Shown piece by piece: positions 2,752 to 28,888 of a stretch of 28,921 bases of DNA. The notes beneath the pieces are model-generated. The model made no database searches, had not been told where the DNA came from, and saw only the letters and a program-made list of their open reading frames with translations. The position numbers and the translations under genes were made by a program. Origin of the DNA: a virus; the IMG/VR virus record IMGVR_UViG_3300025151_000209, positions 1 through 28,921 of that record. One strand, written 5' to 3'. The first letter of the stretch is position 1; each line of letters opens with the position of its first letter.

Positions 2752-2779
2752 AAAGCTCGGCGAAAGCCGAGCTTTTTTT
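2752..2779 (+). terminator. Rho-independent terminator after the sheath gene
   Basis: A perfect 10-bp stem (2752-2761 with 2766-2775) is closed by a GAAA tetraloop and runs into seven T (2773-2779). It lies 22 bases after the sheath stop. The last T is also the first base of the next promoter, TATAAATA at 2779-2786. Confidence 0.93.
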
Positions 2780-2786
2780 ATAAATA
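2779..2786 (+). promoter_or_regulatory. T4-type late promoter abutting the 2793 ATG
   Basis: TATAAATA is an exact match to the T4 late consensus. The six bases TTTTAA separate it from the ATG, so the expected start of transcription falls one base before the ATG. There is no room for a ribosome-binding site. Confidence 0.65.
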
Positions 2787-2792
2787 TTTTAA

Positions 2793-3464
2793 ATGAGCGT
2801 AGGCATACAATATCCAACTAATGATAGAGCTGGTATAATTTCAGAGTTTTATAACAGACTTTTAGAGTATGATACTACCATAGCGGATTCTAATTTGTTC
2901 TACGTTTCATATTCCATTCCTGATGCGTTAACAGATGATTTATATAGAGCAATTGGTGAAACAGCAAAAGACGGGAGAATAGGAATCTCCCCTACTAAAG
3001 AAGTATTTCAAACAAACAAAATACAAGCCCTAACTACTGGAGTGGATTTACCTGATGATAAAGTTGATACTCAAGTTATACCTCATGGCTCTCAAGTGAA
3101 TGGTTATTTACCTATAACAGTAAATGCAAATAGATCAATAGATACTACTGGGTTAAAAACTGTTTTCTATGATACTAATTTAAGTTTAAATGATTTTATA
3201 TTCAAGCCTTGGATACGATTAATCAGTAGGTATGGTTCATTTACAAACGCTTTATACACTAATGTTACAGTTGTTTTTCTCGGAAAAAGAGTCAATAAAG
3301 AAAGCAACAATACAATCGTAAGAAAGATGTATAACTTCTATGATTGTATACCTGTTGATACTGAGAGTAAAGATTCATATGAATATGCTTCTGATCCTAC
3401 AGTAAACACTCATCGTATACAATGGAAGTTTAATAGGTATGATATCGAGCTCACTCGCATTTAA
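2793..3464 (+). CDS. Tail-tube-fold baseplate protein, gp54-like (probable)
   Basis: This 223-residue protein probably shares the tail-tube fold and may initiate the tube on the baseplate like T4 gp54. The C-terminal half has the order of elements seen in gp54 and gp19: a DLPDDKVDTQ segment near 85-94, beta-rich stretches, FYDCIPVDTE at 182-191 (compare the GCIPISVSAPE segment of gp54), then an alternating strand IQWKFNRYDIE at 209-219. It is shorter than T4 gp54 (320). It leads a three-gene unit behind a late promoter and overlaps the next gene by 26 bases. The rest of the tube/baseplate machinery surrounds it, which supports a tail role. It could also be a tail terminator or completion protein; the assignment rests on remembered motif patterns, not an alignment. 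Confidence 0.5.
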   Translation: MSVGIQYPTNDRAGIISEFYNRLLEYDTTIADSNLFYVSYSIPDALTDDLYRAIGETAKDGRIGISPTKEVFQTNKIQALTTGVDLPDDKVDTQVIPHGSQVNGYLPITVNANRSIDTTGLKTVFYDTNLSLNDFIFKPWIRLISRYGSFTNALYTNVTVVFLGKRVNKESNNTIVRKMYNFYDCIPVDTESKDSYEYASDPTVNTHRIQWKFNRYDIELTRI

Positions 3465-4131
3465 TGATATAGAGTACTTATCAAAACAACTAGAAACATA
3501 TAATAGTAAAGCAGTATTCGAATATCTATCTAAATTTGATACAGTACTAGATTATTTTCATTGTATTAAACAAACTATTTTTTCTGTTTCTGAGTTCAGT
3601 GGTTTTCAAATTGACAAAGGGGAACTAGCCTTATCTAGTAATGAGTTTCTTGTAGATATACCTAACTATAAAATTTTTACCTTTAATAGTAAACAATTAG
3701 AATTTAAACTCACTTATCCTAGGATAATATTTGGTACATATAAACAAAATATAAGAACAAGTATTATAGATATTAATAATTGTAATTTATCTCGTTCGCA
3801 AATAGAACAGGTATTGCATACCTTGCCTGTGAAAGAGTACAAAGAATTAACAAATTTTGTTGAAGATAAAATTATATCAAAACTTAATAATATAATTATA
3901 TTTAACACTAAATCTCAAAAACATAAAAAATTATTTACATACAGCCCGCAGGAATTATATAAACTATTATTTTATGTATGTAAGTATCATTTAGACTATC
4001 TACGGAAAATACGAATTATAATGTTCAAGGAAGGCAATTTCAGTCATTATGAATTTAATACAATGACAGTTGAAGAAATAAGTAAGTACTATAAATTATT
4101 AAAGCAAATGTATGACAAACCAAATGAGTGA
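3439..4131 (+). CDS. Unassigned protein of the baseplate-hub cluster
   Basis: This 230-residue protein has no recognised motif. The N-terminus is helical, the middle (about 45-110) mixes strands with polar loops, and the C-terminal 100 residues are helical and rich in Lys, Tyr and Leu, ending in an MTVEEISKYY-type helix. No signal peptide or clear membrane segment is seen. It overlaps the gene before by 26 bases and the gene after by 8 to 20 bases, so translation is likely coupled. Lying between a gp54-like gene and a gp26-like gene, it could be an assembly factor comparable with T4 gp51 or gp28, but that is inference from position only. Confidence 0.6.
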   Translation: MISSSLAFNDIEYLSKQLETYNSKAVFEYLSKFDTVLDYFHCIKQTIFSVSEFSGFQIDKGELALSSNEFLVDIPNYKIFTFNSKQLEFKLTYPRIIFGTYKQNIRTSIIDINNCNLSRSQIEQVLHTLPVKEYKELTNFVEDKIISKLNNIIIFNTKSQKHKKLFTYSPQELYKLLFYVCKYHLDYLRKIRIIMFKEGNFSHYEFNTMTVEEISKYYKLLKQMYDKPNE

Positions 4132-4801
4132 TATCAAAGAAATATTACAATATATTAATGATAATAACAATATTAATATAGAATTACCTTATAGTAAAAA
4201 GTCTATTAATATAAAACGTTATGGTATTGACTCATTGAATATTATTAATGACATTTTCGATAAAGATAGTAATAGTGAAATTGCTATTGATTATTTGAAA
4301 TACTTGTTTGATATTGTCTCTTCACGTATACAAGAAGATTTAAATTATATAGATTTTTTATATTTAATTTTTGCTTTAAGAGAAAAAGAAAATGCAGAAT
4401 ACACAGAACTTAATTTAACTGATATCTTAAAAGATATATCAACTAATTCTTTTGATATTGATGTAACCTCTGCAGAAGTAGTAGACGGGCCTTTAACATA
4501 CAAAATTGAATTACATTATCCTTCATTACAAAAACTTAAAGATTTAGTATCTGCCTCAAATACGGAAACAAAAGATATTGTTTTTTATAATACCTTTAAG
4601 TTTGTAAAAAGTGTAGACATACATGTACAAGACAAAAGGTCTTCTGTGAGTAAGCCAGAAGACCTTTATCAATTATATAATGTCTTAAGTTATAAAGCTT
4701 TAGACAATTTAAGCAGCTTTACCAGTACTATAAATGACAAAATATCAGAAACCTTTAAAATTAATATAGAATCTGATACCGGATTTTTGTATAATATTTA
4801 A
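4112..4801 (+). CDS. Baseplate hub protein, gp26-like (tentative)
   Basis: This 229-residue protein has the general layout of the T4 gp26-type hub family: an N-terminal beta segment (ELPYSKKSINIKRYG), a helical stretch, then a conserved-looking helix near 75-92 ending in LYLIFALREKENAEY, and a beta-rich half. T4 gp26 is 208 residues and belongs to the hub. A second start (ATG at 4124, MSDIKE) would reduce the overlap with the previous gene to 8 bases; neither start has a clear ribosome-binding site. The stop shares the palindrome TTAA (4798-4801) with the stop of the convergent tail-tube gene. The coding sequence also contains a 12-bp perfect hairpin (4635-4667) that may serve the opposite strand. 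Confidence 0.45.
   Translation: MTNQMSDIKEILQYINDNNNINIELPYSKKSINIKRYGIDSLNIINDIFDKDSNSEIAIDYLKYLFDIVSSRIQEDLNYIDFLYLIFALREKENAEYTELNLTDILKDISTNSFDIDVTSAEVVDGPLTYKIELHYPSLQKLKDLVSASNTETKDIVFYNTFKFVKSVDIHVQDKRSSVSKPEDLYQLYNVLSYKALDNLSSFTSTINDKISETFKINIESDTGFLYNI
4631..4667 (-). terminator. Probable terminator of the tail-tube transcript, inside the opposing gene
   Basis: 4635-4646 and 4656-4667 form a perfect 12-bp inverted repeat with a 9-base loop. Read on the minus strand, the stem ends in CCTTTT followed by GTC, a short T run; read on the plus strand it has no useful T run. It lies about 130 bases after the stop of the minus-strand tube gene. The stem is certain and the terminator role is likely, but the T run is weak. 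Confidence 0.55.
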
Positions 4802-5376
4802 AGTAATTTACCTATCTTATTAAGAACTTGTCCAACTTCGTTATCTCTTCTAAAGAATTGGTAAGCAAAGGATGCGTTAAATGTAACTACCTGACCATCA
4901 GTAGAATTAATAGTATATTGCATATCTGCTGCTTCAACTGGGAAAACACCAAATAACTTATAAGTACGAATAGGTTCGAATTCTCCATTAAGCTGCGCTA
5001 ATGTGATCGTACTATCATTATGTAATGTCTGATCTCCTATAGAAGTACTTTCATCAAAAGTTTCGGTCACCCAATTTTCCATTGCAATTCTTGCACTACT
5101 CTGAGCGTCAAGATAGAAGGTAATTTGATAACCAGTTGTTAAATTATATTCTACCGGTCCTGGAATGTTAAAGTTAAATCCTGAGTAAGGTACCGCAACT
5201 GGTTTAATTTTCTTACCCGGAATACTAGCTGTCGTCGCGTAAACTAATTGATCCTCTGTAAATACAGAAGCTCCTTTATTAGAAACATCAAGGACTCGAA
5301 ACTGATAGTTACGAGCGAAATCTTTAGTCTGAGCGACTTTATAGAAATCCTGTATAGTCTGTTTAATATCTGCCAT
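4798..5376 (-). CDS. Tail tube protein, gp19-like
   Basis: This is the major subunit of the inner tail tube, through which DNA passes; hexameric rings stack on the baseplate and the sheath surrounds them. Family marks are ARNYQFRVLDV (21-31), SIPGKKI (51-57), the segment LFGVFPVEAADMQY (141-154) and the closing strand VVTFNASFAYQFF (163-175). At 192 residues it is slightly longer than T4 gp19 (163). It lies on the strand opposite to the sheath and to all other recognised tail genes, with its own late promoter abutting the ATG. It converges with the gp26-like gene, sharing a TTAA at the stops. Independent control makes sense for one of the most abundant virion proteins. Confidence 0.88.
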   Translation of the reverse strand: MADIKQTIQDFYKVAQTKDFARNYQFRVLDVSNKGASVFTEDQLVYATTASIPGKKIKPVAVPYSGFNFNIPGPVEYNLTTGYQITFYLDAQSSARIAMENWVTETFDESTSIGDQTLHNDSTITLAQLNGEFEPIRTYKLFGVFPVEAADMQYTINSTDGQVVTFNASFAYQFFRRDNEVGQVLNKIGKLL

Positions 5377-5381
5377 AAAAA

Positions 5382-5389
5382 TATTTATT
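5382..5389 (-). promoter_or_regulatory. Late promoter of the tail-tube gene, abutting its ATG
   Basis: On the minus strand AATAAATA is followed by five T and then the ATG at 5376. With T4 geometry the first transcribed base would be the A of the ATG. Confidence 0.6.
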
Positions 5390-5412
5390 CTCGGGTAAAT
5401 GTTTATTTCTAA

Positions 5413-5420
5413 ATTAAATA
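5413..5420 (+). promoter_or_regulatory. Late promoter abutting the tape-measure ATG
   Basis: ATTAAATA keeps the TAAATA core and is followed by TTTTAA and the ATG at 5427. It is divergent from the tube promoter, within a 50-base intergenic stretch. Confidence 0.55.
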
Positions 5421-5426
5421 TTTTAA

Positions 5427-7202: not shown

Positions 7203-7205
7203 TAT

Positions 7206-8381: not shown

Positions 8382-8752
8382 AAATAGAAGATTTACAGAA
8401 AAAACAAAATCAAATTTTAGATTTAACTAACTTACAAGATACAAGATACGAAGGTATTTTCAATCTAGGAAAGAATAATGGATATTATTTTTACAATATT
8501 CTCAAAACAGTTAAATTTCCAGAAAATTTAAATCCGGAAATATTTTATTATAAAATAATAGACCAAAAATTACCATACACTGCTATAAGCTATAAAGTTT
8601 ATGGAACACAAGATTTATGGTGGTTTATTGTTTTAAGTAATAATATAAAAAACCCCGTGCAATATTTAACTCCTGGATCAAAACTTAAAATAATTAAAAA
8701 AGAATATTTAAAAAATATTTTAACACAAATCAAAAAGTTAAATAATGCCTAG
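8378..8752 (+). CDS. Baseplate wedge protein, gp53-like
   Basis: This 124-residue protein links baseplate wedges to each other. The central stretch is characteristic of gp53, with its LysM-like fold: YTAISYKVYGTQDLWWFIVL (67-86), NNIKNPV (88-94) and LTPGSKLKII (97-106). T4 gp53 is longer (196), so this is a compact version. It overlaps its upstream neighbour by ATGA and its downstream neighbour by 8 bases, so translational coupling is likely. In T4, gene 53 stands apart from 48; here it is fused into the tube/hub operon. Confidence 0.78.
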   Translation: MKIEDLQKKQNQILDLTNLQDTRYEGIFNLGKNNGYYFYNILKTVKFPENLNPEIFYYKIIDQKLPYTAISYKVYGTQDLWWFIVLSNNIKNPVQYLTPGSKLKIIKKEYLKNILTQIKKLNNA

Positions 8753-10109: not shown

Positions 10110-10936
10110 GTACTATACCATCAAAAACATTATTACACGAATTAGTAAATAACAAGTTTACTAGTACATATGATTTACAGATTAACGCTGTTAATCAAAA
10201 AAAACCTTTTATAGAGTATAAGGATCAGTATGAGTTATATAATGATTATATAAACTGCAAACAAAAAGTAGATCCTATAACATCAGAATCTAATTTTTGG
10301 AAAAACTCTTTAACTAAAATTGAAGGTCTACAACCAGAATTCATTCTTTATTGGCTAGATAAGTTCCATACAACACACCCTAAAGTAAAAGAAGAATTAA
10401 AAAAACAAATCAATATAGAGGAAACAATTCTACAAACGTTTAGTGATAGTATAACTAATATGTTTCGCCAAGACGAGAATATAAGTGCGAGATATACTAC
10501 TGTAGAAGATGTAGAGTTTGATACAACAATACCTAGTCCGTTAACTTCTATATTACAAGATAAATTAAACGTAAATTTTCAATCTAATATATTGAATTCA
10601 AGTACTAAAGTAAATAGTCTTTTTAATCAAAATGTTAATAAAATATTCGATGGTGGTTCTCAAGATACAGCGCATCAATCTAACCTAACAACAGACTATC
10701 ATCATTTACAAAGACTGATAGAAAATAAGCCAGAGCTCTTAGAAATAGTCGCAGATCATGTAGGCAATCTATATGAAGTTCTTTTATACGTTTTTAACTA
10801 TAAGTTAAATAATTTACAAAAAATATTTCCTGTTCAATTCACAAATGATATTGAAGGAGATAAAGTTAATGTAGATATATTAGGCAATAAAATACAAACA
10901 GAAAAAAAATTCAATACAAAAGATTTACTCGGGTAA
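10106..10936 (+). CDS. Unassigned last gene of the tube/hub operon
   Basis: This 276-residue protein is not recognised. It is polar, with a helical N-terminal half (PITSESNFWKNSLTKIEG, then ILYWLDKFHTTHP), an acidic middle, and a helical stretch LLEIVADHVGNLYEVLLYVF (about 212-231) that is moderately hydrophobic. The gene starts in an ATGA overlap with the hub gene, so its product is probably made in proportion to the hub and may be an assembly partner. Its end overlaps the convergent minus gene by 12 bases. A role like T4 gp28 or gp51 is possible but unsupported by any motif. Confidence 0.6.
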   Translation: MSTIPSKTLLHELVNNKFTSTYDLQINAVNQKKPFIEYKDQYELYNDYINCKQKVDPITSESNFWKNSLTKIEGLQPEFILYWLDKFHTTHPKVKEELKKQINIEETILQTFSDSITNMFRQDENISARYTTVEDVEFDTTIPSPLTSILQDKLNVNFQSNILNSSTKVNSLFNQNVNKIFDGGSQDTAHQSNLTTDYHHLQRLIENKPELLEIVADHVGNLYEVLLYVFNYKLNNLQKIFPVQFTNDIEGDKVNVDILGNKIQTEKKFNTKDLLG

Positions 10937-11371
10937 ACTATCAGCTTCAATAATATCTTTACCGTCAATTAATTTTTTCAGCACTTCTTCTCTAGATATC
11001 TTTAATCTATGTTCTTGTTCATTATTTTGTAACAATTGTTTAGATTGTATATCTAGCTGTTTTACTTGCAATTGAGTTTTGGATTTTTTATCCTGTGTTA
11101 CAAGCTTATTCAAGGTTTCAATAGCTCCTGTTGATGCCTTTACTAGCTCTGCAAGAGAAGAAACATTGTCAGCATCTGGCACATGAAAAACTACTTCTTT
11201 CATGTTATCAATCATCTCCATGCTATCCTTGATTAATTTAGAAGACTGATCTATAATAAATTGTTCGACTTCCTCTTTTTCTAGAGGCTCGATATCTTTT
11301 TTAGAGGCTAGTTGTTTAGCTTCCTTTGGGATATTTTTAAGCTGGGCTATAATGTCGTTAGCTTCATCCAT
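10925..11371 (-). CDS. Coiled-coil protein, possible small terminase subunit (gp16-like)
   Basis: This 148-residue acidic protein is almost wholly helical. Residues about 45-115 (KLIKDSMEMIDNMKEVV, then SLAELVKASTGAIETLNKL, then a Gln/Lys-rich heptad-like run) resemble the two-helix oligomerising core of T4-like small terminase gp16 (164 residues in T4), and the ISREEVLKKLI segment fits the C-terminal part. The start follows a TATAAATA promoter by 5 bases. It is on the minus strand, convergent with the hub operon (12-base overlap) and divergent from dut. It could equally be another small coiled-coil virion or assembly protein, so the terminase idea is a proposal. Confidence 0.42.
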   Translation of the reverse strand: MDEANDIIAQLKNIPKEAKQLASKKDIEPLEKEEVEQFIIDQSSKLIKDSMEMIDNMKEVVFHVPDADNVSSLAELVKASTGAIETLNKLVTQDKKSKTQLQVKQLDIQSKQLLQNNEQEHRLKISREEVLKKLIDGKDIIEADSLPE

Positions 11372-11376
11372 AGGAA

Positions 11377-11384
11377 TATTTATA
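11377..11384 (-). promoter_or_regulatory. Late promoter abutting the 11371 ATG
   Basis: On the minus strand TATAAATA, an exact consensus match, is followed by TTCCT and the ATG at 11371. The five-base spacer puts the expected first transcribed base on the A of ATG. Confidence 0.65.
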
Positions 11385-11405
11385 TAAGTTTCTAAGAATT
11401 AAACC

Positions 11406-11433
11406 TTGAACATAAAATAGAAATATATATCAT
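11406..11433 (+). promoter_or_regulatory. Candidate sigma70-like promoter for dut and the clamp loader
   Basis: TTGAAC (4 of 6 matches to TTGACA) and TATCAT (5 of 6 to TATAAT) are 16 bases apart. No TAAATA element precedes dut, unlike the virion units, which fits early or middle expression by host polymerase. AT-rich DNA yields such matches by chance, so this is weak. AGGA sits directly against the ATG, too close for a normal ribosome-binding site. Confidence 0.3.
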
Positions 11434-11439
11434 ATAGGA

Positions 11440-11922
11440 ATGACTGAAAATGTGAATTGGAATTTTGTAGATAAACCTGCAATAAAAGTTAAGTTTTTAA
11501 AAACTCATGAAGCTGCGATTTTACCAAAAGTTAATAATAATGCTTGGGCTACTGGCGACTCAGGCTATGATTTATTCTGTACTGAAGATGTTACTATCTT
11601 GGCTCGTGGATCTACTGTCGCCCCGGTAGGTATCACTGTAGCAGACATTTCACCAGGTTACTGGTTTCGTATTGAACCTCGATCGGGTTTAGGTTTTAAA
11701 CATAATATTCAACCACATCTTGGGGTTATTGACAATCAGTATAGAGGGGATTTAGGAGTTAAGCTTTATAACTTTAGCGATACTGACGTAACAATTGAAA
11801 AGGGTAAAGCAGTCGCGCAGTTTGTTGTATATCCTCTAGTTCAGATTGATGTTGGTTGGTCAGATGAGGTAACAGAGACAGCTCGAGGTGATAAGGGTTT
11901 TGGTTCATCTGATAAAAATTGA
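11440..11922 (+). CDS. dut: dUTPase (dUTP diphosphatase)
   Basis: The enzyme hydrolyses dUTP to dUMP and pyrophosphate, keeping uracil out of phage DNA and feeding dTMP synthesis. All five motifs of the trimeric family are present: ATGDSGYDL (37-45), PRSGLG (80-85), GVIDNQYRGDL (95-105, with the catalytic Asp), KGKAVAQFVVYP (121-132) and the C-terminal RGDKGFGSS (149-157) that closes the active site. At 160 residues it is a normal length, with nothing missing. It is followed 3 bases later by the clamp loader gene, forming a two-gene replication island among tail genes. It is probably expressed earlier than its neighbours, as judged from function and the lack of a late element. Confidence 0.96.
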   Translation: MTENVNWNFVDKPAIKVKFLKTHEAAILPKVNNNAWATGDSGYDLFCTEDVTILARGSTVAPVGITVADISPGYWFRIEPRSGLGFKHNIQPHLGVIDNQYRGDLGVKLYNFSDTDVTIEKGKAVAQFVVYPLVQIDVGWSDEVTETARGDKGFGSSDKN

Positions 11923-11925
11923 GTC

Positions 11926-12849
11926 ATGGAAATTACTGACATCTGGGTAGAAAAATACAGACCCACTAAACTGGATGATGTTGTATTATCAAAGGACACG
12001 CGTGGTTATTTTGATAATATAAAGCAAACTGGAAACCTACCTAACTTATTATTAGTAGGCTCCCCAGGTGTCGGTAAAACTACCCTCGCGAAAGTTATTA
12101 TCGGGGATATACTAAATTCCCAATATCTTTATATTAATGCATCTGATGAAAACGGTATCGATACCATACGAACCAAAGTTTTGAATTTTGCTCAAACACA
12201 AAGTATTTTTGGTACCACTAAAGTTATTATACTTGATGAGTGTGATGGGCTCAGTCTTGACGCTCAAAAAGCTCTACGTAACAGTATAGAAGAGTATCAC
12301 GATATTGCGAGATTTGTACTCACTGCAAACTATCAGCACAAAATTATACCAGCTCTTCAATCTAGATGTCATGTATTTCAATTAACACCCCCTAAACAAG
12401 AGTATGTTAAGAGAGTACTACAGATTGTAGAAAAAGAAGAATTAAATATCGAGCAATCGTATCTTTCCGAGCTGATCAGTAAATCCTATCCGGATTTGCG
12501 GAAATGTATTAATAGTATTCAAAAATATAACATCTCTGGTAATCAGATTAATGTAGTTAATGCTGCAGAGAACGTTATAGACTCATGTCTCTCCTTTGTT
12601 AAGAGTAATAACATATACAAGGCACGTAAACATGTAATTGAAAATGAGAGCGCATTTAGCAATGATTACGATACTCTCTTTAAAGTACTGTTTGACAAAC
12701 TATATACCAATAAATTAGAATTATCAGAACAAAAAAACAGAGACTGCATGGTAACAGTCTCTGAATACTTTTATAGAAATAATATAGTAATTGATAAAGA
12801 AATTAACTTCTTTACATGCTTAATTGAATTAGCTCGGCAAATATTGTGA
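11926..12849 (+). CDS. Sliding clamp loader ATPase, gp44-like
   Basis: This AAA+ ATPase opens the sliding clamp and places it on primed DNA, working with a gp62-type partner not in this window. Motifs in order: WVEKYRP (7-13), Walker A GSPGVGKT (45-52), Walker B IILDEC with the DEC-D box (101-107), sensor-1 LTAN (132-135) and SRC with the arginine finger (146-148). The C-terminal part is the helical collar. At 307 residues it matches T4 gp44 (319) well. In T4 the loaded clamp also activates late transcription, which would tie this gene to the TAAATA promoters here. Its 3' end overlaps the convergent minus gene by 21 bases and carries that gene's putative terminator hairpin. Confidence 0.95.
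   Translation: MEITDIWVEKYRPTKLDDVVLSKDTRGYFDNIKQTGNLPNLLLVGSPGVGKTTLAKVIIGDILNSQYLYINASDENGIDTIRTKVLNFAQTQSIFGTTKVIILDECDGLSLDAQKALRNSIEEYHDIARFVLTANYQHKIIPALQSRCHVFQLTPPKQEYVKRVLQIVEKEELNIEQSYLSELISKSYPDLRKCINSIQKYNISGNQINVVNAAENVIDSCLSFVKSNNIYKARKHVIENESAFSNDYDTLFKVLFDKLYTNKLELSEQKNRDCMVTVSEYFYRNNIVIDKEINFFTCLIELARQIL
12731..12763 (-). terminator. Rho-independent terminator of the 13344-12829 gene, inside the clamp loader gene
   Basis: 12738-12746 and 12755-12763 form a perfect 9-bp stem with an 8-base loop. On the minus strand the stem is followed by seven T (12737-12731), the standard terminator form. It lies 66 bases after the stop of the minus gene and wholly within the opposing coding sequence. 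On the plus strand there is no T run after the stem. Confidence 0.8.
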
Positions 12850-13344
12850 TGTATAGCTTTTATTTTCTGAAGCTAATTTATAATCTCCGTTATCAATCTT
12901 AGAACTATTACCTATATCAACCTGAGCGTCTTTTACGGCCTCGGGTTTGTGAGTAAGTTTTTCTTCTTTCTCGTTATTTTTATCGGTTCTAGTACCTCTG
13001 TGCACTTCTGCTTTTTCATCGAATTCAATTAATTCAATAGGTATGGATAAAGCATTATTATAAAAACCAGGGGATTCTTCTACAGTTATATCAGCTATAT
13101 ACTCTTTAGAACCTAATGCATTAGTTTCGTACTGAGTAGATTTAATAGCACTAAATAAAATAAACTTACCTGCTTCTTGTAGAGAAATAATATTATCTAC
13201 ATAGCCCTTCCTGGCTTCGTCTAGGTTTTTATACCAGTCGGAGCTTTTTACATTAGAACGTATTTTTACATAGTCTCCGGGAATTGCACTTGTTTTCTCA
13301 AAGCGCTGGTATACCTCTTCGTATATTTCGTTAAATTTTCCCAT
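12829..13344 (-). CDS. Unassigned protein with acidic/lysine-rich tail
   Basis: This 171-residue protein is not recognised. The N-terminal part begins MGKFNEIYEEVYQRFEK, then PGDYVKIRSN (about 22-31) and strands around ILFSAI, YIADITVEE and SIPIELIEF (to about 108), consistent with a small beta-barrel-like domain after a helix. The C-terminal 60 residues (RGTRTDKNNEKEEK onward) are polar and probably disordered. The start is fixed by a CATAAATA promoter six bases upstream. It is a one-gene minus unit with its own terminator, divergent from gp25 and convergent with the clamp loader. Late-type expression suggests a virion or assembly role, but nothing names it. Confidence 0.6.
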   Translation of the reverse strand: MGKFNEIYEEVYQRFEKTSAIPGDYVKIRSNVKSSDWYKNLDEARKGYVDNIISLQEAGKFILFSAIKSTQYETNALGSKEYIADITVEESPGFYNNALSIPIELIEFDEKAEVHRGTRTDKNNEKEEKLTHKPEAVKDAQVDIGNSSKIDNGDYKLASENKSYTSQYLPS

Positions 13345-13350
13345 TTTAAT

Positions 13351-13358
13351 TATTTATG
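13351..13358 (-). promoter_or_regulatory. Late promoter abutting the 13344 ATG
   Basis: On the minus strand CATAAATA is followed by ATTAAA and the ATG at 13344. The same ATTAAA spacer occurs in the divergent gp25 promoter 42 bases away. Confidence 0.6.
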
Positions 13359-13372
13359 CTTTTTGTTTTATT

Positions 13373-13380
13373 ATTAAATA
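13373..13380 (+). promoter_or_regulatory. Late promoter abutting the gp25 ATG
   Basis: ATTAAATA is followed by ATTAAA and the ATG at 13387. Together with the 13351-13358 element it forms a compact divergent pair in a 42-base intergenic stretch. Confidence 0.55.
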
Positions 13381-13386
13381 ATTAAA

Positions 13387-13860
13387 ATGGCGATTAACTT
13401 AGATTTTTTATCTGATCAAACGAAACCGCAAGGTCATGTATATGCAGATCTTCATTTACCGTTTGCATTAAAGACTAAGCTATCTAATAAGTATTTGAAA
13501 GATACAGGGCAGAAAAAAGATGTACAATTAGATTATGATTCTTATGCTATTAAAAACTCTGTACAAAATATTTTCAACACTATGCCGGGGCAAAAAATAC
13601 TCAACCCTAGCTTCGGCTTAGATTTAAGACAATACTTATTTGAACCTATAACAGAGGAAACCGCGAGAGAGATAGGTAATACTATAATAGAACAATTAAC
13701 AGAATATGAACCTAGGATAGTTCTTAATAATGTAGATATTGAAGCAAGAGAAAATGATAACGAATACAGAGTTATTATAAGTATAACTATCCCAGACTTA
13801 AATAATTTAAGAACGAATCTAGATGGTACTCTAGACGAAAATGGATTTAGATATAATTAA
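13387..13860 (+). CDS. Baseplate wedge protein, gp25-like
   Basis: This is a structural wedge subunit at the top of the baseplate, contacting gp6 and the first sheath ring. The gp25/GPW domain is complete: the helix AIKNSVQNIFNTMPGQK (54-70), the loop NPSFGLDLRQYLFEP (73-87), a second helix, and the EPR motif at 108-110 followed by the strands IVLNNVDIEAR and YRVIISITIP. At 157 residues it is close to T4 gp25 (132), with a short N-terminal addition. It heads the wedge operon and is followed 2 bases later by gp6, the same pairing found in most contractile tails. The gp25 fold resembles lysozyme only by old annotation and carries no enzyme residues. Confidence 0.92.
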   Translation: MAINLDFLSDQTKPQGHVYADLHLPFALKTKLSNKYLKDTGQKKDVQLDYDSYAIKNSVQNIFNTMPGQKILNPSFGLDLRQYLFEPITEETAREIGNTIIEQLTEYEPRIVLNNVDIEARENDNEYRVIISITIPDLNNLRTNLDGTLDENGFRYN

Positions 13861-13862
13861 TT

Positions 13863-15704
13863 ATGGCAGATATAACAGAATTTAATTTACCTGTAGATAG
13901 TTACGCAGCTTTTGACGCGCAAAGCATGCGAGATTTAATCATTCAACGATTAAATGATTCTCCGTCTATATTTACAGATCAAAACTTCGAAGGTAGTAAC
14001 TTAAATGCTATCATAGACGTTATTGCATACTCGTTTCATACGCTTTTATTCTATCTAAATCAAACTAGCTCAGAAGCTATGTTCTCAGACGCACAGTTGT
14101 ATGAGAATATGAACCGTATAGTTAAGTTATTAGACTATAAGCCATTAGGTAGACAATCTTCTATAGTACCTATAGAGCTCAGAGGTTCTACAAATTTATC
14201 ATCCGGTTATTATACTATACCTAGATTCTCATTTATTACTTCTAAAGGCAAAACATATTCCACTACTAAAGATATTTCTTTTAGAAAGCTTAATAATAAC
14301 TTAGCAGAAGATTTAACTATAATAGATAATTCTCTTTTTAACGAAGGTAAATACAAAGAGTATCCTAACGTTAATGCAATTGGTGAAGACTTCGAAACAG
14401 TTAGCTTGTTACCAGGTCCTTCTGTTTCTATAGATCATTTTAGTATAAAAATATTTGTAAAAGAATTTGCCACGTCTTCTATAGGAGAGGATAGATGGTA
14501 TGAATATGAAAGAGTACCTTCTCTTTATTTAAGTAATCCAAACGCTAGAGCCTTTGAGTGCAGATTTAACGAAAATAAAAACTACGAAATTAAATTTGGT
14601 AACAATATTAATGGTAAAAGACTAAAACCAGGAGAAACAATAGCCATATACTATATTGCTTCATCTGAAGAAGAAGGGCAAATTACAAAAAATAATTTTA
14701 GTGGGACTACTATAAATGTTTATAATACTACAAAGTATGATGAAATTTTTAATGATGTAAAAGATGTAACTGTTAATTACGTGTCTGTTAATGATAGTGT
14801 TGAAATTACAGCTACAAATACAGAAGATAGTACAGAGTACAGCACAGAAGAAACTGTAGAACAAATAAGAAGCAACACTCCTAAGTTTTTCAGTTCTGAA
14901 TATAAGTTAATAACTAAACAAGATTATGAAAGCTTTATTACTAGAAACTTTAAGAACCTCACTTACGACATAAAAGCTAGTAATAATTCAGATTATGTAA
15001 ATAACTTTTTAGATTATACAAGAAATGAATTAGGAATGGCTAGTTACACAGAGCACAATAATGCTTTATATAATCAATATCAGTACTCTGATAGTTTTAA
15101 TGTTAATAACATTTTCTTGACTATTATACCAAAGTTCAAAAAAGGAAATTCTGTAGTTACAAGATCTAATTATTTACCTGCTTCTCTGAAAAATGAAATA
15201 TTATTTGAAATGAGAAAGTATAAAATGCTTAACGCAGAAATATGCTTTTTAGACCCTGTGTATTTAGCTGTTGATTTTGCAGTTAAAAGAGCGACAGAAA
15301 ATAATGTTTTAAGCTATAAAGACTCGTCTAAACTAATAATTTATAGAAACAACAGCTCTATAGTAAATGATGAAACTATAAAAAATAAAGTTGTAACTAT
15401 TCTACAAAATTACTTTACTAGTTGTAAGTTAGGTAAAACCATAGATATACAAAACTTAAATAGTCAAATTTTAAGTATACAGGGGGTTGATAGTTTTGTA
15501 ACAGCAAGAGATGATGATCAGTTATCCAAAGAAGGATTAAACCTAGGGGTATATAACCCTATACACAATGGTAAAGATTTTAAAATTATAGATACTAATT
15601 TCAAGTTACGATATTTTCAAATACCTTATATAGAAGATATGGAGTCTATAAAAAATAAAATATCTGTAATTCCGGTAACTAAACAAACAACTGTTGAATA
15701 CTAA
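13863..15704 (+). CDS. Baseplate wedge protein, gp6-like (baseplate J family)
   Basis: This 613-residue protein is the core wedge subunit, which dimerises with a gp7-type partner to form the ring that opens on adsorption. The N-terminal block is typical: FNLPVDSYAAFDAQSMRDLI, the segment FEGSNLNAIIDVIAYSFHTL (42-61) and a helix ending MNRIVKLLDYKPLG (83-96). The middle (about 100-330) is beta-rich, and the C-terminal half carries the gp6 dimerisation region, including a SEYKLITKQDYESFITRNF segment. T4 gp6 is 660 residues. It is coupled to gp25 upstream and to the PKD-domain gene downstream by a one-base TAATG overlap. Confidence 0.85.
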   Translation: MADITEFNLPVDSYAAFDAQSMRDLIIQRLNDSPSIFTDQNFEGSNLNAIIDVIAYSFHTLLFYLNQTSSEAMFSDAQLYENMNRIVKLLDYKPLGRQSSIVPIELRGSTNLSSGYYTIPRFSFITSKGKTYSTTKDISFRKLNNNLAEDLTIIDNSLFNEGKYKEYPNVNAIGEDFETVSLLPGPSVSIDHFSIKIFVKEFATSSIGEDRWYEYERVPSLYLSNPNARAFECRFNENKNYEIKFGNNINGKRLKPGETIAIYYIASSEEEGQITKNNFSGTTINVYNTTKYDEIFNDVKDVTVNYVSVNDSVEITATNTEDSTEYSTEETVEQIRSNTPKFFSSEYKLITKQDYESFITRNFKNLTYDIKASNNSDYVNNFLDYTRNELGMASYTEHNNALYNQYQYSDSFNVNNIFLTIIPKFKKGNSVVTRSNYLPASLKNEILFEMRKYKMLNAEICFLDPVYLAVDFAVKRATENNVLSYKDSSKLIIYRNNSSIVNDETIKNKVVTILQNYFTSCKLGKTIDIQNLNSQILSIQGVDSFVTARDDDQLSKEGLNLGVYNPIHNGKDFKIIDTNFKLRYFQIPYIEDMESIKNKISVIPVTKQTTVEY

Positions 15705-17929
15705 TGTCAGTAAATAAAAGCGCTACATTTATTAATAGAATTGCGGCTCCTGTAACTGTGTCTCCTAGTAGTTTATCTGGGTACACTGGAATTACTGACT
15801 TTACTTTTACGTCTCATATCACAGGAGCTTTAAATGATAATATAGGTAACAAAGTAAGTAAAGCTAAACTAGTTTGGGATTTCGGAGACGGAACCTCAGT
15901 TACTGATGCAAATGTTACTCAAGTCAATCATATATACAACTATCCAGGAATATATACAGTAGAGGTATTTTACTACGACGGAGACGGAGAATCATATTTG
16001 GGTAGTTTAACTAAAAATGTTACTGCTTATAATTATAAAGAAACAGAGCTATCTTTAATGAAAGGGGTTTCCAGCTATTCAATTAAAGCAGGGGACGGAA
16101 ACTTAGATCGAAATAGCATAGACGTATACGTTAGAACTACTTGGCAAGATTATAATCCTGACGGTAATACAATATATTTCGCTGCTAGTGGTAGTAAAAG
16201 CGACATATATGATAATAATTATAAATACGCCTTTTTATTACCTTTTAGATCTTTTTATACTTTAGAAGATAGGAATTATAAGCGATCGAATAAGTTAACT
16301 GTAAATTTAATTCCTAAATATTTCGAGCTAGATAGTGATGGGGAGACCCCGATAGAGATTGATCAAACAGGTTTAACTGAGCCCCGTGGAACCTTTTTAT
16401 ATGCCGAATCAGTAATAGATCCTTTATATTCTCCGAAGATATATTATTTTGATGACTTACCTAGTACAGTAAGATTAATTGCTGCTCTTGATACTTCAAA
16501 AAATAAACTACCAGATTTTTACGTAAATAACATATCTACTGATATAAACTTAGCTGGAATGAATTTTATGGAAAGTAATATAGGTTACTTTGATATAAAA
16601 GTACAACCAGCAAAACCAGAAACAATAGTTTTTACTAGCACTGGTCACAAAGATATGCGAGTACATAATAGAAAAATTGATGGTTCTAATTTTCAAGTAT
16701 TCGCAGCTGTTGGAGATGTAGATGGTAATATCCTAAAATACTATCCTGAATTTACGTTAAGCGAGGATGGGGTTAAAAATGGTACAGCTAATACGTTTAA
16801 TGCTTTAATTTATAACTTATCTAGTTTTAATGCCTCTTATTTACCGCCACTTGAAGACCCGCAAACCCATAGTATTTCAACCTCTTCTTCAAATATAAGT
16901 AGCTTAAGTACTAATAAGTTTCCGTATAGTGTTTCTTCTAGTTGTACTCAAATAAGCTCATTTGGATATTTAAATATAACTCCTTTTATAAATGATAGTA
17001 CAGATAAAATTTTAGGAGTATCAGCTAGACCCACAACTAATATACTTGACACTGATATTCCTTTGATATCAGGCGCACTTTATTATACAGTTGATGAGAC
17101 AACTAACGGACAAGAAAGTAAACATAACGAAGATTTTAATTATCAAGAAACTTTAGAGAATTATAGATTACAACAAATATTAACGGAAGATGGAGATAGC
17201 TTTTTCGGAGGTATATTAGGCAAAATAGTAGGAACAAATTTTGATAAAGCTAGCTTCTATGGTAAAAACATATACGAAAAAATAGCAAATTTTGTAGAAA
17301 ATAGTTCTGATGTTGATGAATGTAATATAGATAAATTACAAGACCTATATAAGATATTCAACGAAGAGCCTAATTTTTCTTTATTATTAGCGCCACCGGA
17401 ATTAAAAAGACTATATGACTTTTTAACTATCAAAGTTAGCAAGCTGGTTGGTGGTTTAGAAAAACATAATCAAAATTTTGATACTTTCTATACTCAAAAC
17501 TCCGCATACGGAGTTAACTTAGACAAAGGGGATCCAATTTCAGTTGAAACTTACACAGTTACAGCTGGTACTAATTTCGTAGCAAGACAGAGATTTAATA
17601 ATGAGTATATACTCATTGAACCAATGAAAGTACCAACCAGTACTATTAATAAAGGTACTACAGAAAAATATCCTTTAAGCTGTTTTGGCACAGTAAGCAA
17701 TTGGGGCTGGCCTTTGGATGAAACATCTACCGGAGCTAACTTATCTTTAATTTATGATTTTTATCCATTTATAAATAGATACAATAATAAAAAGGAAAGC
17801 GTTATAGACTATGATAATGTTTTAAATGATACTCCGTATAGTGTTGATTCATTATCTGCTTGGAATTCGACCAATAAAACTCAATATAAAATTATAGATA
17901 AAAAACTCAGAGACGGATTGAATATATGA
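15704..17929 (+). CDS. Baseplate or tail protein with N-terminal PKD domain
   Basis: This 741-residue protein carries a clear PKD (Ig-like) domain at about 18-110: WDFGDGTSV (58-66), HIYNYPGIYTVEVFYYDGDG (76-95). The rest is not recognised; it contains long beta-rich stretches and a helical region around 480-600 (YRLQQILTEDG, CNIDKLQDLYKIFNEE, LLLAPPELKRLYDFL). PKD domains usually mediate protein or carbohydrate contacts on surfaces. The gene follows gp6 with a one-base overlap and overlaps the next by ATGA, so it belongs to the wedge operon. By position it, or its neighbour, may take the place of T4 gp7/gp8/gp10, but no family mark was seen. Confidence 0.72.
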   Translation: MSVNKSATFINRIAAPVTVSPSSLSGYTGITDFTFTSHITGALNDNIGNKVSKAKLVWDFGDGTSVTDANVTQVNHIYNYPGIYTVEVFYYDGDGESYLGSLTKNVTAYNYKETELSLMKGVSSYSIKAGDGNLDRNSIDVYVRTTWQDYNPDGNTIYFAASGSKSDIYDNNYKYAFLLPFRSFYTLEDRNYKRSNKLTVNLIPKYFELDSDGETPIEIDQTGLTEPRGTFLYAESVIDPLYSPKIYYFDDLPSTVRLIAALDTSKNKLPDFYVNNISTDINLAGMNFMESNIGYFDIKVQPAKPETIVFTSTGHKDMRVHNRKIDGSNFQVFAAVGDVDGNILKYYPEFTLSEDGVKNGTANTFNALIYNLSSFNASYLPPLEDPQTHSISTSSSNISSLSTNKFPYSVSSSCTQISSFGYLNITPFINDSTDKILGVSARPTTNILDTDIPLISGALYYTVDETTNGQESKHNEDFNYQETLENYRLQQILTEDGDSFFGGILGKIVGTNFDKASFYGKNIYEKIANFVENSSDVDECNIDKLQDLYKIFNEEPNFSLLLAPPELKRLYDFLTIKVSKLVGGLEKHNQNFDTFYTQNSAYGVNLDKGDPISVETYTVTAGTNFVARQRFNNEYILIEPMKVPTSTINKGTTEKYPLSCFGTVSNWGWPLDETSTGANLSLIYDFYPFINRYNNKKESVIDYDNVLNDTPYSVDSLSAWNSTNKTQYKIIDKKLRDGLNI

Positions 17930-20079: not shown

Positions 20080-20080
20080 T

Positions 20081-20088
20081 AGTAAATA
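20081..20088 (+). promoter_or_regulatory. Late promoter abutting the lectin-like gene ATG
   Basis: AGTAAATA keeps the TAAATA core and is followed by TTATAT and the ATG at 20095. It begins 1 base after the preceding stop, so no terminator separates the units; read-through may add to expression. Confidence 0.45.
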
Positions 20089-20094
20089 TTATAT

Positions 20095-21858: not shown

Positions 21859-21860
21859 AA

Positions 21861-22916: not shown

Positions 22917-22921
22917 TAGGG

Positions 22922-22929
22922 AATAAATA
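22922..22929 (+). promoter_or_regulatory. Late promoter abutting the 22935 ATG
   Basis: AATAAATA is followed by five T and the ATG at 22935, the same arrangement as the tail-tube promoter. It opens the last plus-strand unit of the window. Confidence 0.6.
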
Positions 22930-22934
22930 TTTTT

Positions 22935-23756
22935 ATGGCTTTAGAAGATGAAATTATTAATATAGATCAGCTGGAAGTAGCAAAAGAAATCCAGATTGGA
23001 GATCTCATCTTAATAGAAACAACAGATGGTACGAAATTAATTGATTTTAAAGATTTTATTATTGGTACCGATAATGTAACTTTTTACGATAAAATAGCCG
23101 CGCTGGAAACAAACGATGATACAGATAGTGGAGAGACTATACTAAAAGCTTCAAACATAGAAGCTTTGAGCTCGAAGTATGCCTATCATGAAAGTCTATT
23201 GTCTTCTATTAGCGCAGTAAACAATACTACTGATAACTTAGATTCAAGATTATCAGTAGCATTATCAGACATAAGTAATTTAGCGGCTCAAATAGATGCG
23301 AATGTGTCTGTAGCTAGCTATACAACTTCTAAAATCGGCTTTGCCGCAGCAAGATATAATCGAGAGACTAAACTTCGAAGTGTGTCATTCACAGAGGAAG
23401 TTTTCACCGGAAGCTCACTAACCAGTGGTTATAATATATCAGTTGCCGCGGCATCCGATACTAATACTTGGAAATACACTGCAGTAGGTATTTATACATT
23501 ACAAATAACAGGTTTTTTAACGTTTGAGACCAAGCAATCATCAGGTGGTGTAATAAATGATACAATTCAATTATTAAAAAATGGCAAAATAATAGCCACT
23601 TATAGATTTAATGATGTTAACAATTCCGGTAGAGACCGACAATACACTTTACCAATAGCTACAGTAGTAAAACTCGAACAAGGTGATATTTTAACATTTA
23701 AATGTGGTGGTAAACAAAGACTACTGAGCGGTAATATTGCTGGTACAATTATTTAA
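22935..23756 (+). CDS. Small tail-fiber-like protein with C1q/TNF-like C-terminus
   Basis: This 273-residue protein has three parts. Residues 1-50 (INIDQLEVAKEIQIGDLILI, TDGTKLIDFKDFII) resemble the N-terminal attachment segment common in fibers of marine T4-like phages. Residues about 75-125 are coiled-coil-like (LSSKYAYHESLLSSISAV, LDSRLSVALSDISNLAAQID). Residues about 155-273 form a beta domain with GIYTLQITGFLTFE, DTIQLLKNGKIIATYRF and VVKLEQGDILTF, the strand pattern of C1q/TNF-like trimeric jelly rolls. The whole suggests a short trimeric fiber. It overlaps the giant fiber gene by one base (TAATG), suggesting a shared structure. Family assignment is by pattern only. Confidence 0.58.
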   Translation: MALEDEIINIDQLEVAKEIQIGDLILIETTDGTKLIDFKDFIIGTDNVTFYDKIAALETNDDTDSGETILKASNIEALSSKYAYHESLLSSISAVNNTTDNLDSRLSVALSDISNLAAQIDANVSVASYTTSKIGFAAARYNRETKLRSVSFTEEVFTGSSLTSGYNISVAAASDTNTWKYTAVGIYTLQITGFLTFETKQSSGGVINDTIQLLKNGKIIATYRFNDVNNSGRDRQYTLPIATVVKLEQGDILTFKCGGKQRLLSGNIAGTII

Positions 23757-26700: not shown

Positions 26701-28660
26701 ATTATACATTGGAGCTGTAAGTACACCCTATAATCTAAACTTTTCTAATAGATTACTACAAAAAGGTAAATACTTTCTCAGAGACATTAAGATAAGGGGA
26801 TTACGTATGTATGATAAACCTCTTAACTTCTATGAAATACAAACTCATATAAATTATCATAGAATTCAAAAAGACTGTGTATGGTCTATACCTATCGGTC
26901 AAAGAATATATACTGACACTATCGATAGAGTATTTAAATTTAATATACCTGAAAAGGTAACTAATACATACGATGTACTAATTAAAAATTTAGATATACG
27001 CGACAGAGATACTCTTAATAAATTAAGAGCGGAAATTCTTAAAGAACTGCCCAAGATAACTCCATTTTACGATGAAGTTAGAGATGTTATCTTTGAAAGA
27101 CAACTAACTACAGATCCAAACGTAAGAATAGATAGACCACAAATACCTACCACCTACTTATTAGATCCAGGCGCATGTATTGTAAAATATATAAATGGTA
27201 GACGTAGATTGTTCTTTATTGTTGAAAGAGGAGAATATGTAGTTAAGGATGATGAGACAGTTGTAATACCAGAAAAACCGGTGCCGGAAATAGAATTAAA
27301 TTGCCCTCCGAGTTTATTCCTGAAAGAGTCATCATGGAAGTTAAATCCCGACACTGGTCGATATTATAGATTTATTCCAACTGTCACTCCTGAAGGATGT
27401 GATAGCATAGGTATAGAATTAGAATGCCCACCAGAGCAACCAATTTGGTCTGAACAGCTCCAAAAATGTATACCTATAGAACCTCATGAGGATCCTGTTG
27501 AAGATCCAGACTGTGATCCTCCAAGAGTATGGGACCCTGTTGCTGGAAGATGTAAAGCACCAGACCCATGCCCTCCAGGTACAACCCCTGTATATAATTC
27601 AAAAGGAGTCAGAATTAGATGTCAAAAGAATACTGAATGTCTTCCAGGGTATGTATGGGATAAAGAAAAAGAAGAATGTGTAATTAAAATTAATTGTAAG
27701 CCTGATGAATATTACGATCCGCCATCTGGGAGATGCATTCCCAGAAAGAAAGACAAAACAGGGCCCATAGAATGCGAGATTCCTGGTTACGTATGGAACG
27801 AAGCTAAAGATGAATGTGAAAGTCCTGGATGCCCACCGGGTGAAGATTGTGGTGGTTTTGATTGTCTTCCTTGGGAAGATTGCGGTGGTGATGACCCTCC
27901 GCATCAGGATCCGGATCCGGAAGAGTGCCAAGAAGGGGAAGTGTGGAACGAAGCTAAAGGAGAATGTGAGCGACCGTGCCCCGCGGGTGAAGATTGCGAT
28001 GGGGATGACTCAGAGGATACTAATTACCACGTATACTATGTTGTTCTTGAGGGCTATGTCGGTAACGACGAAAAAAGGCTCCGTTTTGATTTTAATTACT
28101 ACGGTCAAACTATTTATACAGAAGGAGATACAACAATAAAATTAATACCATATCCTGGTGGGGAATCTGACATAAATAAAGTACCATCAGCGGCAATACC
28201 ATTAAACCATTCCATTCCATTTGCAGTTGCAATGATAATCAAGAGAGGGGATTCTGATCATACTTATTTTAAAGGCCCGAATGTTAATAATGCAGATTTT
28301 GTTCCAAATGTAATCAATACAATTCCCGGTGCACCGGATGTATTTAAAAATGCGGGAGTTCAAGTCTGGATAACAGAAACACACTCTTCAGGTGTTGATT
28401 ATGGAGTAACAAAAACCACAGGAGCTAATACAACTTTACAATCAATCCTCGATGTTTTAACATTATATATACATTTTAAAAATCCCAACTATACCGCAGT
28501 AACAGGATTTACCAGGCCAGAAGGGATTGGAGATTATAAAGCAGGTTACGATCAAGGTGGAGCTCCTAAATTTGGCGATGGTGCTAGTGTTGGGTTTCGG
28601 TCAGCGACACCCGGTTACGATTCTGCGACTTTCAGAATGTCGATAAATCTAACATCTTAA
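23756..28660 (+). CDS. Giant tail fiber/adhesin with LamG-like domain and Cys-rich repeats
   Basis: This 1634-residue protein is the largest in the window. Residues about 1-860 are beta-rich and Asn/Ser/Tyr-rich without clear motifs; 640-830 show propeller-like repeats (VDDEDNIFTLFDTNRI). A LamG/concanavalin-like domain spans about 870-1025, with YNHFTVNVSTKKGFMELYVN around 940-958 and GLYIGA. Residues 1183-1414 hold 22 cysteines in repeated modules of the form C-x(2)-PG-x-(V)-(W/Y)-(D/N)-x(4-6)-C, rich in Pro, Glu and Asp. A final domain of about 220 residues (1415-1634) is unknown. The order of stalk, lectin-like module, cysteine array and tip domain suits a receptor-binding fiber. Its stop shares TTAA with the convergent small gene. 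Confidence 0.7.
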   Translation: MKIHTFNSDTVKPVKLVNNIDPKLLYTGFAENFDFGLRLQTYNVINNLKDRKTNYNTAYFLSELKSLSSVLELEVPYTFDATNKFTTSIYVNGKYAYSNSDKTQISLQQLTTSQSTVSALSSEFFFTFNLSTNRFLYLTHEINDTTYYAYVDKVGSSKIVKLTTTLPSDESHIFRYNFDGKGIRLFPKYITNHGSGSGFIIDSSYNSRLEAGTTGNSTSAPTLLKINRHSLTYDKKYVNNSFCYYLSSYNKDDVNLDLSTTVESISNNYLFFGSNYSYVAKDETLSFNFLPLKNQATNEEYFVPSNHFNAEPDNINRSYEKIFGGNNQNTGFDKMYLSYNTGTKDMRFPPSKMTYFTTPSSMSPYDRLNINDSKIEHLGAVAGNNPLIADKVFKRREDVKNNYFSDDVNATYLCSWLSGNELGDKIWVDRFYNPSYSSFSDAISGTSFYNIVTGANARSTHVFDISSRLTFEPNNDYAYYHIGELDYESHLESLNNYLLSENIEILNSKGGRGKVERVKRDLEIDFDGDNFGRYLTDKKGDFSFTFWLSAQDYSKPLGYMLLGNYFEEGFGVFNTDLVTPNIYLPTGNKLLLINNDFEVYDEIEIFEGDTPITIKGVARKDIFSEFYILGENNIIYIYNSNPNLISKVTDLSGIQNLEIDDIDLNEERIYLSINPYDGIKSKYFFYDISTNETSNATSLNDLVSADTFGRKGKIFISTENNYRSFYEVDSDIETGNEIAFTSNEDVFAIKQRLPESQDVPYNLIYKNNYTNDSTNTITLTSGSLNALVTNVIVDDEDNIFTLFDTNRISKHKPTRQLVSHTELTFLNKTSKKYIDFIFDFEGKEYKKYILIVESLTDRTLLHKLTTDFNLVKTTSLGSKIINNLKLTKTVTGFNYLKKIGASKNRLKVKLKTKPLFTKTGAYKKEETIIDYNISQLVNGYNHFTVNVSTKKGFMELYVNGIKNTTQYFQPGKYILDNPLGSGLYIGAVSTPYNLNFSNRLLQKGKYFLRDIKIRGLRMYDKPLNFYEIQTHINYHRIQKDCVWSIPIGQRIYTDTIDRVFKFNIPEKVTNTYDVLIKNLDIRDRDTLNKLRAEILKELPKITPFYDEVRDVIFERQLTTDPNVRIDRPQIPTTYLLDPGACIVKYINGRRRLFFIVERGEYVVKDDETVVIPEKPVPEIELNCPPSLFLKESSWKLNPDTGRYYRFIPTVTPEGCDSIGIELECPPEQPIWSEQLQKCIPIEPHEDPVEDPDCDPPRVWDPVAGRCKAPDPCPPGTTPVYNSKGVRIRCQKNTECLPGYVWDKEKEECVIKINCKPDEYYDPPSGRCIPRKKDKTGPIECEIPGYVWNEAKDECESPGCPPGEDCGGFDCLPWEDCGGDDPPHQDPDPEECQEGEVWNEAKGECERPCPAGEDCDGDDSEDTNYHVYYVVLEGYVGNDEKRLRFDFNYYGQTIYTEGDTTIKLIPYPGGESDINKVPSAAIPLNHSIPFAVAMIIKRGDSDHTYFKGPNVNNADFVPNVINTIPGAPDVFKNAGVQVWITETHSSGVDYGVTKTTGANTTLQSILDVLTLYIHFKNPNYTAVTGFTRPEGIGDYKAGYDQGGAPKFGDGASVGFRSATPGYDSATFRMSINLTS
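27302..27997 (+). repeat. Cysteine-module repeats within the giant fiber gene
   Basis: About seven degenerate modules of 14-19 residues, each bounded by cysteines, with key residues P/G after the first Cys, an aromatic then D/N in the middle and a final Cys. Two copies are recent at the DNA level: 27791-27820 and 27941-27970 agree at 26 of 30 bases, and the GGTGAAGATTG stretch after each is also shared. The region looks more GC-rich than its surroundings. Confidence 0.85.
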
Positions 28661-28875
28661 CGACCTGAGAGGAATAGAGATTGTATATTTTGTAGTTCCA
28701 TTAAATAGTCTCTATAGATGTTTGCAGCTTTAGCATCTGTACCTTCCATGATGAGCTCTTTACCATCATGCTGATATTTCTCTAATAGAGATTGATATTT
28801 ACGGATTGTACTCTGAAGAGCTTGGTAAGTTAATGTTGGTTTGTTTCGTTCGAATTCGCTTACGTTCATATTCAT
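28657..28875 (-). CDS. Small unassigned late protein
   Basis: This 72-residue protein is not recognised. It is helical and charged: MNMNVSEFERNKPTLTYQ, then QSTIRKYQSLLEKYQHDGKE and an Ala/Tyr-rich helix ending in MELQNIQSLF. An in-frame ATG further upstream (28899) lies within and before the promoter, so 28875, five bases after AATAAATA, is the better start; the next ATG at 28869 is also possible. It is convergent with the giant fiber, sharing a TTAA at the stops. The size and two-helix look suit a small assembly or scaffold protein, but there is no direct evidence. Confidence 0.65.
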   Translation of the reverse strand: MNMNVSEFERNKPTLTYQALQSTIRKYQSLLEKYQHDGKELIMEGTDAKAANIYRDYLMELQNIQSLFLSGR

Positions 28876-28880
28876 ATTTT

Positions 28881-28888
28881 TATTTATT
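28881..28888 (-). promoter_or_regulatory. Late promoter abutting the 28875 ATG
   Basis: On the minus strand AATAAATA is followed by AAAAT and the ATG at 28875. It fixes the start of the small gene by the same rule as the other late units. Confidence 0.55.

Follow-up and report, generated by a model that had tools for sequence, protein, structure and literature searches.

Where do the mRNAs of a T4-like phage begin when its late promoter elements stand only 5 or 6 nt before the start codon? The question is raised by the 28,921-base window (the whole stretch of DNA analysed here), which gene matches to PHROGs and Pfam mark as part of the genome of an uncultured T4-like myovirus, and in which the initial annotation had noted nine TAAATA sites at this distance from an ATG. 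With TAAATA as the search word for the element, all nine were found at the starts it had named, five with a gap (the nucleotides between element and ATG) of 6 and four with a gap of 5. The features of the window that bear on the question are the following.

44..49, plus strand: late element of the tail sheath gene gp18 (ATG 69), gap 19, leadered, the one late unit of the window outside the pattern
69..2729, plus strand: tail sheath gp18 gene (PHROG 23, 1.4e-63)
2752..2775, plus strand: intrinsic terminator with a 10-bp stem, its T-tract running into the late element at 2781
2781..2786, plus strand: late element, gap 6 to ATG 2793, right after the intrinsic terminator; most orthologues have a gap of 5-7
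4798..5376, minus strand: tail tube gp19 gene (PHROG 45), predicted leaderless
5382..5387, minus strand: late element, gap 5 to ATG 5376 (gp19), covered by orthologue comparison
5415..5420, plus strand: late element pointing away from that of gp19, gap 6 to ATG 5427
11377..11382, minus strand: late element, gap 5 to ATG 11371 (unnamed protein, 10925-11371)
11406..11411, plus strand: sigma70-type -35 TTGAAC of the dUTPase/clamp-loader unit
11428..11433, plus strand: sigma70-type -10 TATCAT after a 16-nt spacer, gap 6 to ATG 11440
11440-11922, plus strand: dUTPase (PHROGs/Pfam), replication unit, without late element
11926-12849, plus strand: clamp loader gp44 (PHROGs/Pfam), sharing the unit 11440..12849 with dUTPase
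12738..12763, minus strand: terminator-like near-perfect palindrome with T-tract, inside the gp44 3' end
13351..13356, minus strand: late element, gap 6 to ATG 13344 (gene 12829-13344)
13375..13380, plus strand: late element, gap 6 to ATG 13387 (gp25), covered by orthologue comparison
13387-13860, plus strand: baseplate wedge gp25, first gene of the unit 13387..15704, predicted leaderless
13863-15704, plus strand: baseplate wedge gp6, second and internal gene of the gp25 unit
20083..20088, plus strand: late element, gap 6 to ATG 20095; gap 6 in 8 of 13 orthologues
22924..22929, plus strand: late element, gap 5 to ATG 22935
28881..28886, minus strand: late element, gap 5 to ATG 28875 (72-aa ORF 28657-28875)

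The remaining window genes mostly had no match in PHROGs or Pfam good enough for naming; a large tail-region protein (15704-17929) carries a PKD domain (PF18911, 1e-7). No tRNA genes were found in the window, and two are present in clade record G004. Relatives were collected by scanning IMG/VR with gp6, the sheath, gp44 and a 1634-aa tail-region protein, which gave 112 loci, some of them sharing contigs. In a gp44 tree, whose exact root is unsure because several deep references sit on long branches, the window falls in a well-supported group of 23 rows nested in 86 uncultured sequences, and these 86 are separate from the T4, cyanophage and pelagiphage references. Among the matches listed, identity to the nearest deposited phages is at most about 41% for gp44 and 35% for the portal, and none exceeds 42% for gp44, portal, sheath or gp6. 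A second IMG/VR contig (L021) has sheath-to-tube proteins 100% identical to those of the window, with the same closely spaced elements.

As a word, TAAATA is no more frequent in the window than expected (77 hits against 95), and only its position is special. At a gap of 5-6 nt it precedes 9 of the 23 gene-start ATGs but only 1 of the 834 other window ATGs (Fisher p = 1.2e-14), and it is missing at that distance from all 12 operon-internal genes, in line with the earlier claim about such genes. The comparison with a shuffled background proposed earlier points the same way: of the 857 distinct starts in the window clade, 153 have TAAATA at a distance of 5-7 nt from the ATG (fused elements hereafter) against 6.7 expected from dinucleotide shuffles (maximum 10), and in the wider set 213 of 864 against 7.3. 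Chance placement is ruled out by these window and clade-wide counts. At least two fused starts, forming half or more of the motif-bearing starts, are found in 42 of 63 wider contigs. The weakest of the nine elements is that of 28875, which is without the HTTWYA signature described below and precedes the least certain unit, ORF 28657-28875 on the minus strand. This ORF has a 97% identical homologue in L106, and the counterpart there contains an indel, yet an in-frame ATG again stands 5 nt from TAAATA (a single case).

The distance is kept in relatives as well, down to about 30% protein identity, though the rest of the intergenic region and a large part of the protein have changed. For the gene at 22935, the gap is 5 in 6 of 6 relatives at 28-49% protein identity; for 10925-11371 it is 5 in 26 of 34 motif-bearing orthologues, for 12829-13344 it is 6 in 23 of 43, and for ATG 5427 it is 6 in 3 of 3 orthologue upstreams, one of them from the same phage. 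The late element, present before gp19, gp25 and others, is absent from the starts of dUTPase (no TAAATA in 33 orthologue upstreams) and gp44 (none at gap 5-7 in 73 orthologue upstreams). From codon 2 onwards, the N-terminal codons of close orthologues vary mostly at third positions, which indicates coding constraint, and by this measure the fused start codons are sound.

The T4 late box of 8 bp has its first two bases at -13/-12 and spans -13 to -6 (PMC2988020), in agreement with the end at about -6 on which the original proposal was built. A box ending at -6 puts +1 at the sixth base after TAAATA, which in the clade would be the A of the AUG or a base 1-2 nt before it. The bases around the starts fit this geometry. 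A pyrimidine precedes the ATG in 72 of 73 gap-5 starts compared to 287 of 610 starts without the motif (p = 1e-20), which makes the A of ATG the purine of a Y-R step; in gap-6 starts the base before the ATG is a purine in 44 of 55, and in gap-7 starts a purine occupies -2 in 22 of 25. The purine thus remains the sixth base after TAAATA, and the Y-R step stays at positions 5/6, wherever the ATG stands. In the wider clade the -1 pyrimidine rule holds less strictly (92 of 114). HTTWYA follows TAAATA in 54 of the 73 gap-5 starts but in only 24 of 843 background copies, and the downstream bases (HTTW) are better conserved in the register of TAAATA than in that of the ATG (best column 1.42 versus 0.95 bits). 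The TA at -13/-12 is not conserved in the clade, and the full 8-bp T4 consensus is thus not kept. The earlier prediction that the first transcribed base lies at or near the A of ATG is therefore supported by promoter geometry and initiator register, which place the predicted +1 on the AUG or no more than 2 nt from it.

A single short motif had been proposed to encode both late transcription and leaderless translation. In that form the claim is not supported, because early genes including dUTPase have fused promoters of the sigma70 type; the part concerning T4-type late promoters with a start near the AUG stands, with gp55 in all clade records checked and the element almost only at operon-first positions. 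The label 'early' is based here on gene function and promoter type. First genes without TAAATA carry TTGA-N16-TATAAT, with the end of the -10 mostly 6-7 nt from the ATG. The gap is 4-9 in 29 of 47 sigma70-type matches of the window clade (1.0 expected) and in 41 of 47 of the wider clade (1.4 expected), with a peak at 6 in both, compared to 0 of 2 in T4. The sigma70 -10 element ends at -7 and the T4 late box one base closer to +1, so that the gap peaks of 6 (early) and 5 (late) would both set +1 on the A of ATG. At gap-6 early promoters, -1 is a pyrimidine in 12 of 14 cases in the window clade and in 20 of 25 in the wider set. Since the early promoters are likewise fused, leaderlessness would be a trait of the whole expression system and not of the late motif alone, and as a prediction from sequence it is phage-wide. 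Simple scans found neither a late element nor a fused early promoter in 99 of 225 (about 44%) window-clade first genes.

Our main reading, to which we give a probability of roughly 0.8, is that the promoters of this uncultured T4-like clade place +1 on the start codon or 1-2 nt ahead of it, by a gp55-type promoter in late units and a sigma70-type promoter in early units. In late units, host RNA polymerase with a gp55-type late sigma would read TAAATA (-11 to -6), followed by HTTWY and a purine +1, which would make these transcripts dependent on gp55. In early units, a sigma70-type holoenzyme of the host would read TTGA-N16-TATAAT, whose -10 is one base further from +1. The actual 5' ends of both mRNA classes would then lie at or almost at 5'-AUG, and the ribosome would bind the 5' end directly, without a Shine-Dalgarno sequence, so that translation in the host would be leaderless. 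Downstream operon genes would be reached via overlapping or very close stop and start codons. We also lean, with less assurance, towards the view that across the whole clade the early (host sigma70) and late (gp55) programmes run mainly from promoters fused to start codons, with most first-gene mRNAs beginning at the AUG.

A different reading takes TAAATA with its A/T-rich surroundings for a Kozak-like signal of translation initiation, of the kind seen in Flavobacterium, and puts the real promoters elsewhere. The rare use of Shine-Dalgarno sequences by the clade (0-15% of starts in most loci, and none of the 23 window starts) agrees with it, as does the mildly raised A at -3 in starts without the motif (0.49), a feature shared with F. 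johnsoniae (PMC6847099). SD-like sequences occur in 7 of the 153 fused starts (2.2 expected by shuffling), and the no-motif starts have some (81 against 46.6 expected). But a translation signal would be needed before operon-internal genes too, and only 6 of 376 such starts have one; moreover, the conserved downstream bases track TAAATA and not the ATG (the 1.42 versus 0.95 bits given above), a gp55 homologue is present, and early genes use another element at a distance appropriate for sigma70. We consider this reading very improbable.

Equally little can be said for the TAAATA units being ordinary host sigma70 (extended -10) promoters instead of gp55-type ones. TAAATA is A/T-rich and host-type promoters do exist in the clade genomes; however, no -35 enrichment is seen at fused TAAATA in the window clade (TTGA 5 versus 5.5 expected), and in the wider clade TTGA is found 16 times versus 9 expected, whereas the early genes do have a -35. 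Further points against such promoters are that dUTPase starts lack TAAATA, that gp44 starts lack it at gap 5-7, and that gp55 is in every clade record checked. The gp55 late-sigma homologue was found in 12 of 12 large clade records (E 4e-40 to 9e-77), as well as in T4, P-SSM2, Mosig and a Rhizobium phage; its presence is judged from clade records, as the window fragment ends short of the gp55 region. The late co-activators gave another picture. No match to the gp45 sliding clamp (PF09116, PF02916 and a custom profile) or to gp33 (PF16805) was obtained in the 12 clade records (G001-G012), which are possibly fragments; gp33 was found in T4, P-SSM2 and Mosig, and the gp45/gp33 models find T4, Mosig and, for two of the three models, P-SSM2. 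The clamp loader gp44 occurs in all 12 records, which makes a diverged clamp likely, and since gp45 and gp33 were not detected, late transcription in the clade may be wired differently from that of T4.

That the short distance is a mere by-product of genome compaction, with leader length unselected, is suggested by the small intergenic gaps and the many starts overlapping the upstream gene, but it is hardly tenable given that 52 fused versus 10 leadered elements are found in the window clade where 40-79 nt are free, so that lack of room is not the cause, that T4 is compact too and yet has longer gaps, and that the late and early gaps peak at 5 versus 6, each setting +1 at the AUG. Fused elements follow operon position: they precede 54 of 145 divergent starts, 45 of 171 starts with at least 15 nt of intergenic space and 27 of 75 with 5-14 nt, amounting to 126 of 391 divergent or at least 5 nt intergenic starts, versus 6 of 376 starts where the upstream gene overlaps or almost reaches the ATG. 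Because the terminator at 2752-2775 abuts the element at 2781, the gene at 2793 appears insulated from upstream transcripts. The palindrome at 12738-12763 is likely the terminator of the convergent minus-strand unit 12829-13344, located just past its end.

A few heavily used virion genes would retain a short leader under our main reading. The gap of 18-19 before gp18, corresponding to a leader of 13-14 nt, is kept in G001 (65680) and G004 (124853), and the leader text AGAAAGTTAYAACT is near-identical in the window and G001. The gap is 19 for gp23 of G003 and 9-23 for gp21. One distant sheath gene (L023) is fused with a gap of 5. These gaps suggest that some abundant virion proteins (gp18, gp23 and gp21) keep a short leader.

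Late transcription of T4 (gp55, gp33, gp45; TATAAATA) shares with the clade the core element at a predicted -11 to -6, a homologous gp55, virion genes on both strands and the lack of a -35. The clade has a TATAAATA-like element, in which TAAATA is followed by the predicted +1 six nt later; it differs from T4 in the relaxed TA at -13/-12, the conserved HTTWY segment and the undetected gp45 and gp33. The T4 leaders are about 20 nt long with a Shine-Dalgarno sequence, compared to a predicted 0-2 nt without one in the clade. When the same gene caller was used as for the window, TAAATA in the T4 late region stood mostly 21-28 nt before the ATG (most commonly 27-28) with a Shine-Dalgarno sequence between, which confirms the earlier statement that T4 late mRNAs have leaders. 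The T4-like cyanophages and pelagiphages, represented by P-SSM2 and Mosig, likewise have TAAATA elements and a gp55 homologue, but the P-SSM2 gaps are mostly 12-25 with none at 5-7, and those of Mosig are mostly 9-32 with few close ones. SD-like starts make up 55% in T4, 20% in P-SSM2 and 67% in Mosig; low Shine-Dalgarno use is thus common to P-SSM2 and the clade, unlike the strong use in Mosig.

Leaderless mRNAs, with +1 at the start codon and translation without a leader, are known from phages lambda and P2 and from mycobacteria (PMC4633059), and the paper on phage AR9 notes that transcripts of phages often lack a leader (PMC5312081). The lambda and P2 cases are single genes, whereas in the clade many early genes, and many late genes in operon-first position, are predicted to have leaderless mRNAs, made with the phage's own sigma in the one case and that of the host in the other. 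Flavobacterium, a member of the Bacteroidetes, resembles the clade in the absence of Shine-Dalgarno sequences, but F. johnsoniae mRNAs are mostly leadered (87% >10 nt; PMC6847099). The Bacteroidetes -10 element TAnnTTTG is not enriched in the clade, so that the promoter type does not support a Bacteroidetes host.

Leaderless mRNAs (PMC4633059) and T4-type late promoters (PMC2988020) are thus known separately. In the literature searched, we found neither an account of T4-type late genes being leaderless nor a T4-like clade in which both promoter classes are predicted to give leaderless mRNAs from operon-first genes. Textbooks explain phage gene control with T4, whose late mRNAs have leaders with Shine-Dalgarno sequences; a large T4-related group that keeps the late sigma and drops the leaders, those of early genes included, would be a natural system for high-output leaderless translation. 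If the prediction is true, it implies either a host with routine leaderless initiation or a phage-driven switch of the ribosome towards leaderless mRNAs. Fused promoters would offer a hint to the host and an easy way to recognise the true start codons of these genomes, and two promoter classes with a one-base difference in spacing would mark the transcription start without RNA data.

As to the host, a search in MAG contigs returned only distant relatives. A phage-encoded bS21 is found in G004 (80975-81127), G006 (80554-80682), G007 (167052-167213) and G009 (190766-190903), and also in Pelagibacter phage Mosig. As a clue to the host it was set aside: the PDB matches of the G004 protein are to many bS21 chains and do not decide between hosts. 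Among cultured T4-like phages, Rhizobium phage RHph_I1_18 (MN988519.1) has a few TAAATA-N5-ATG starts, including that of gp25 (119183-119569), and is a possible cultured test case.
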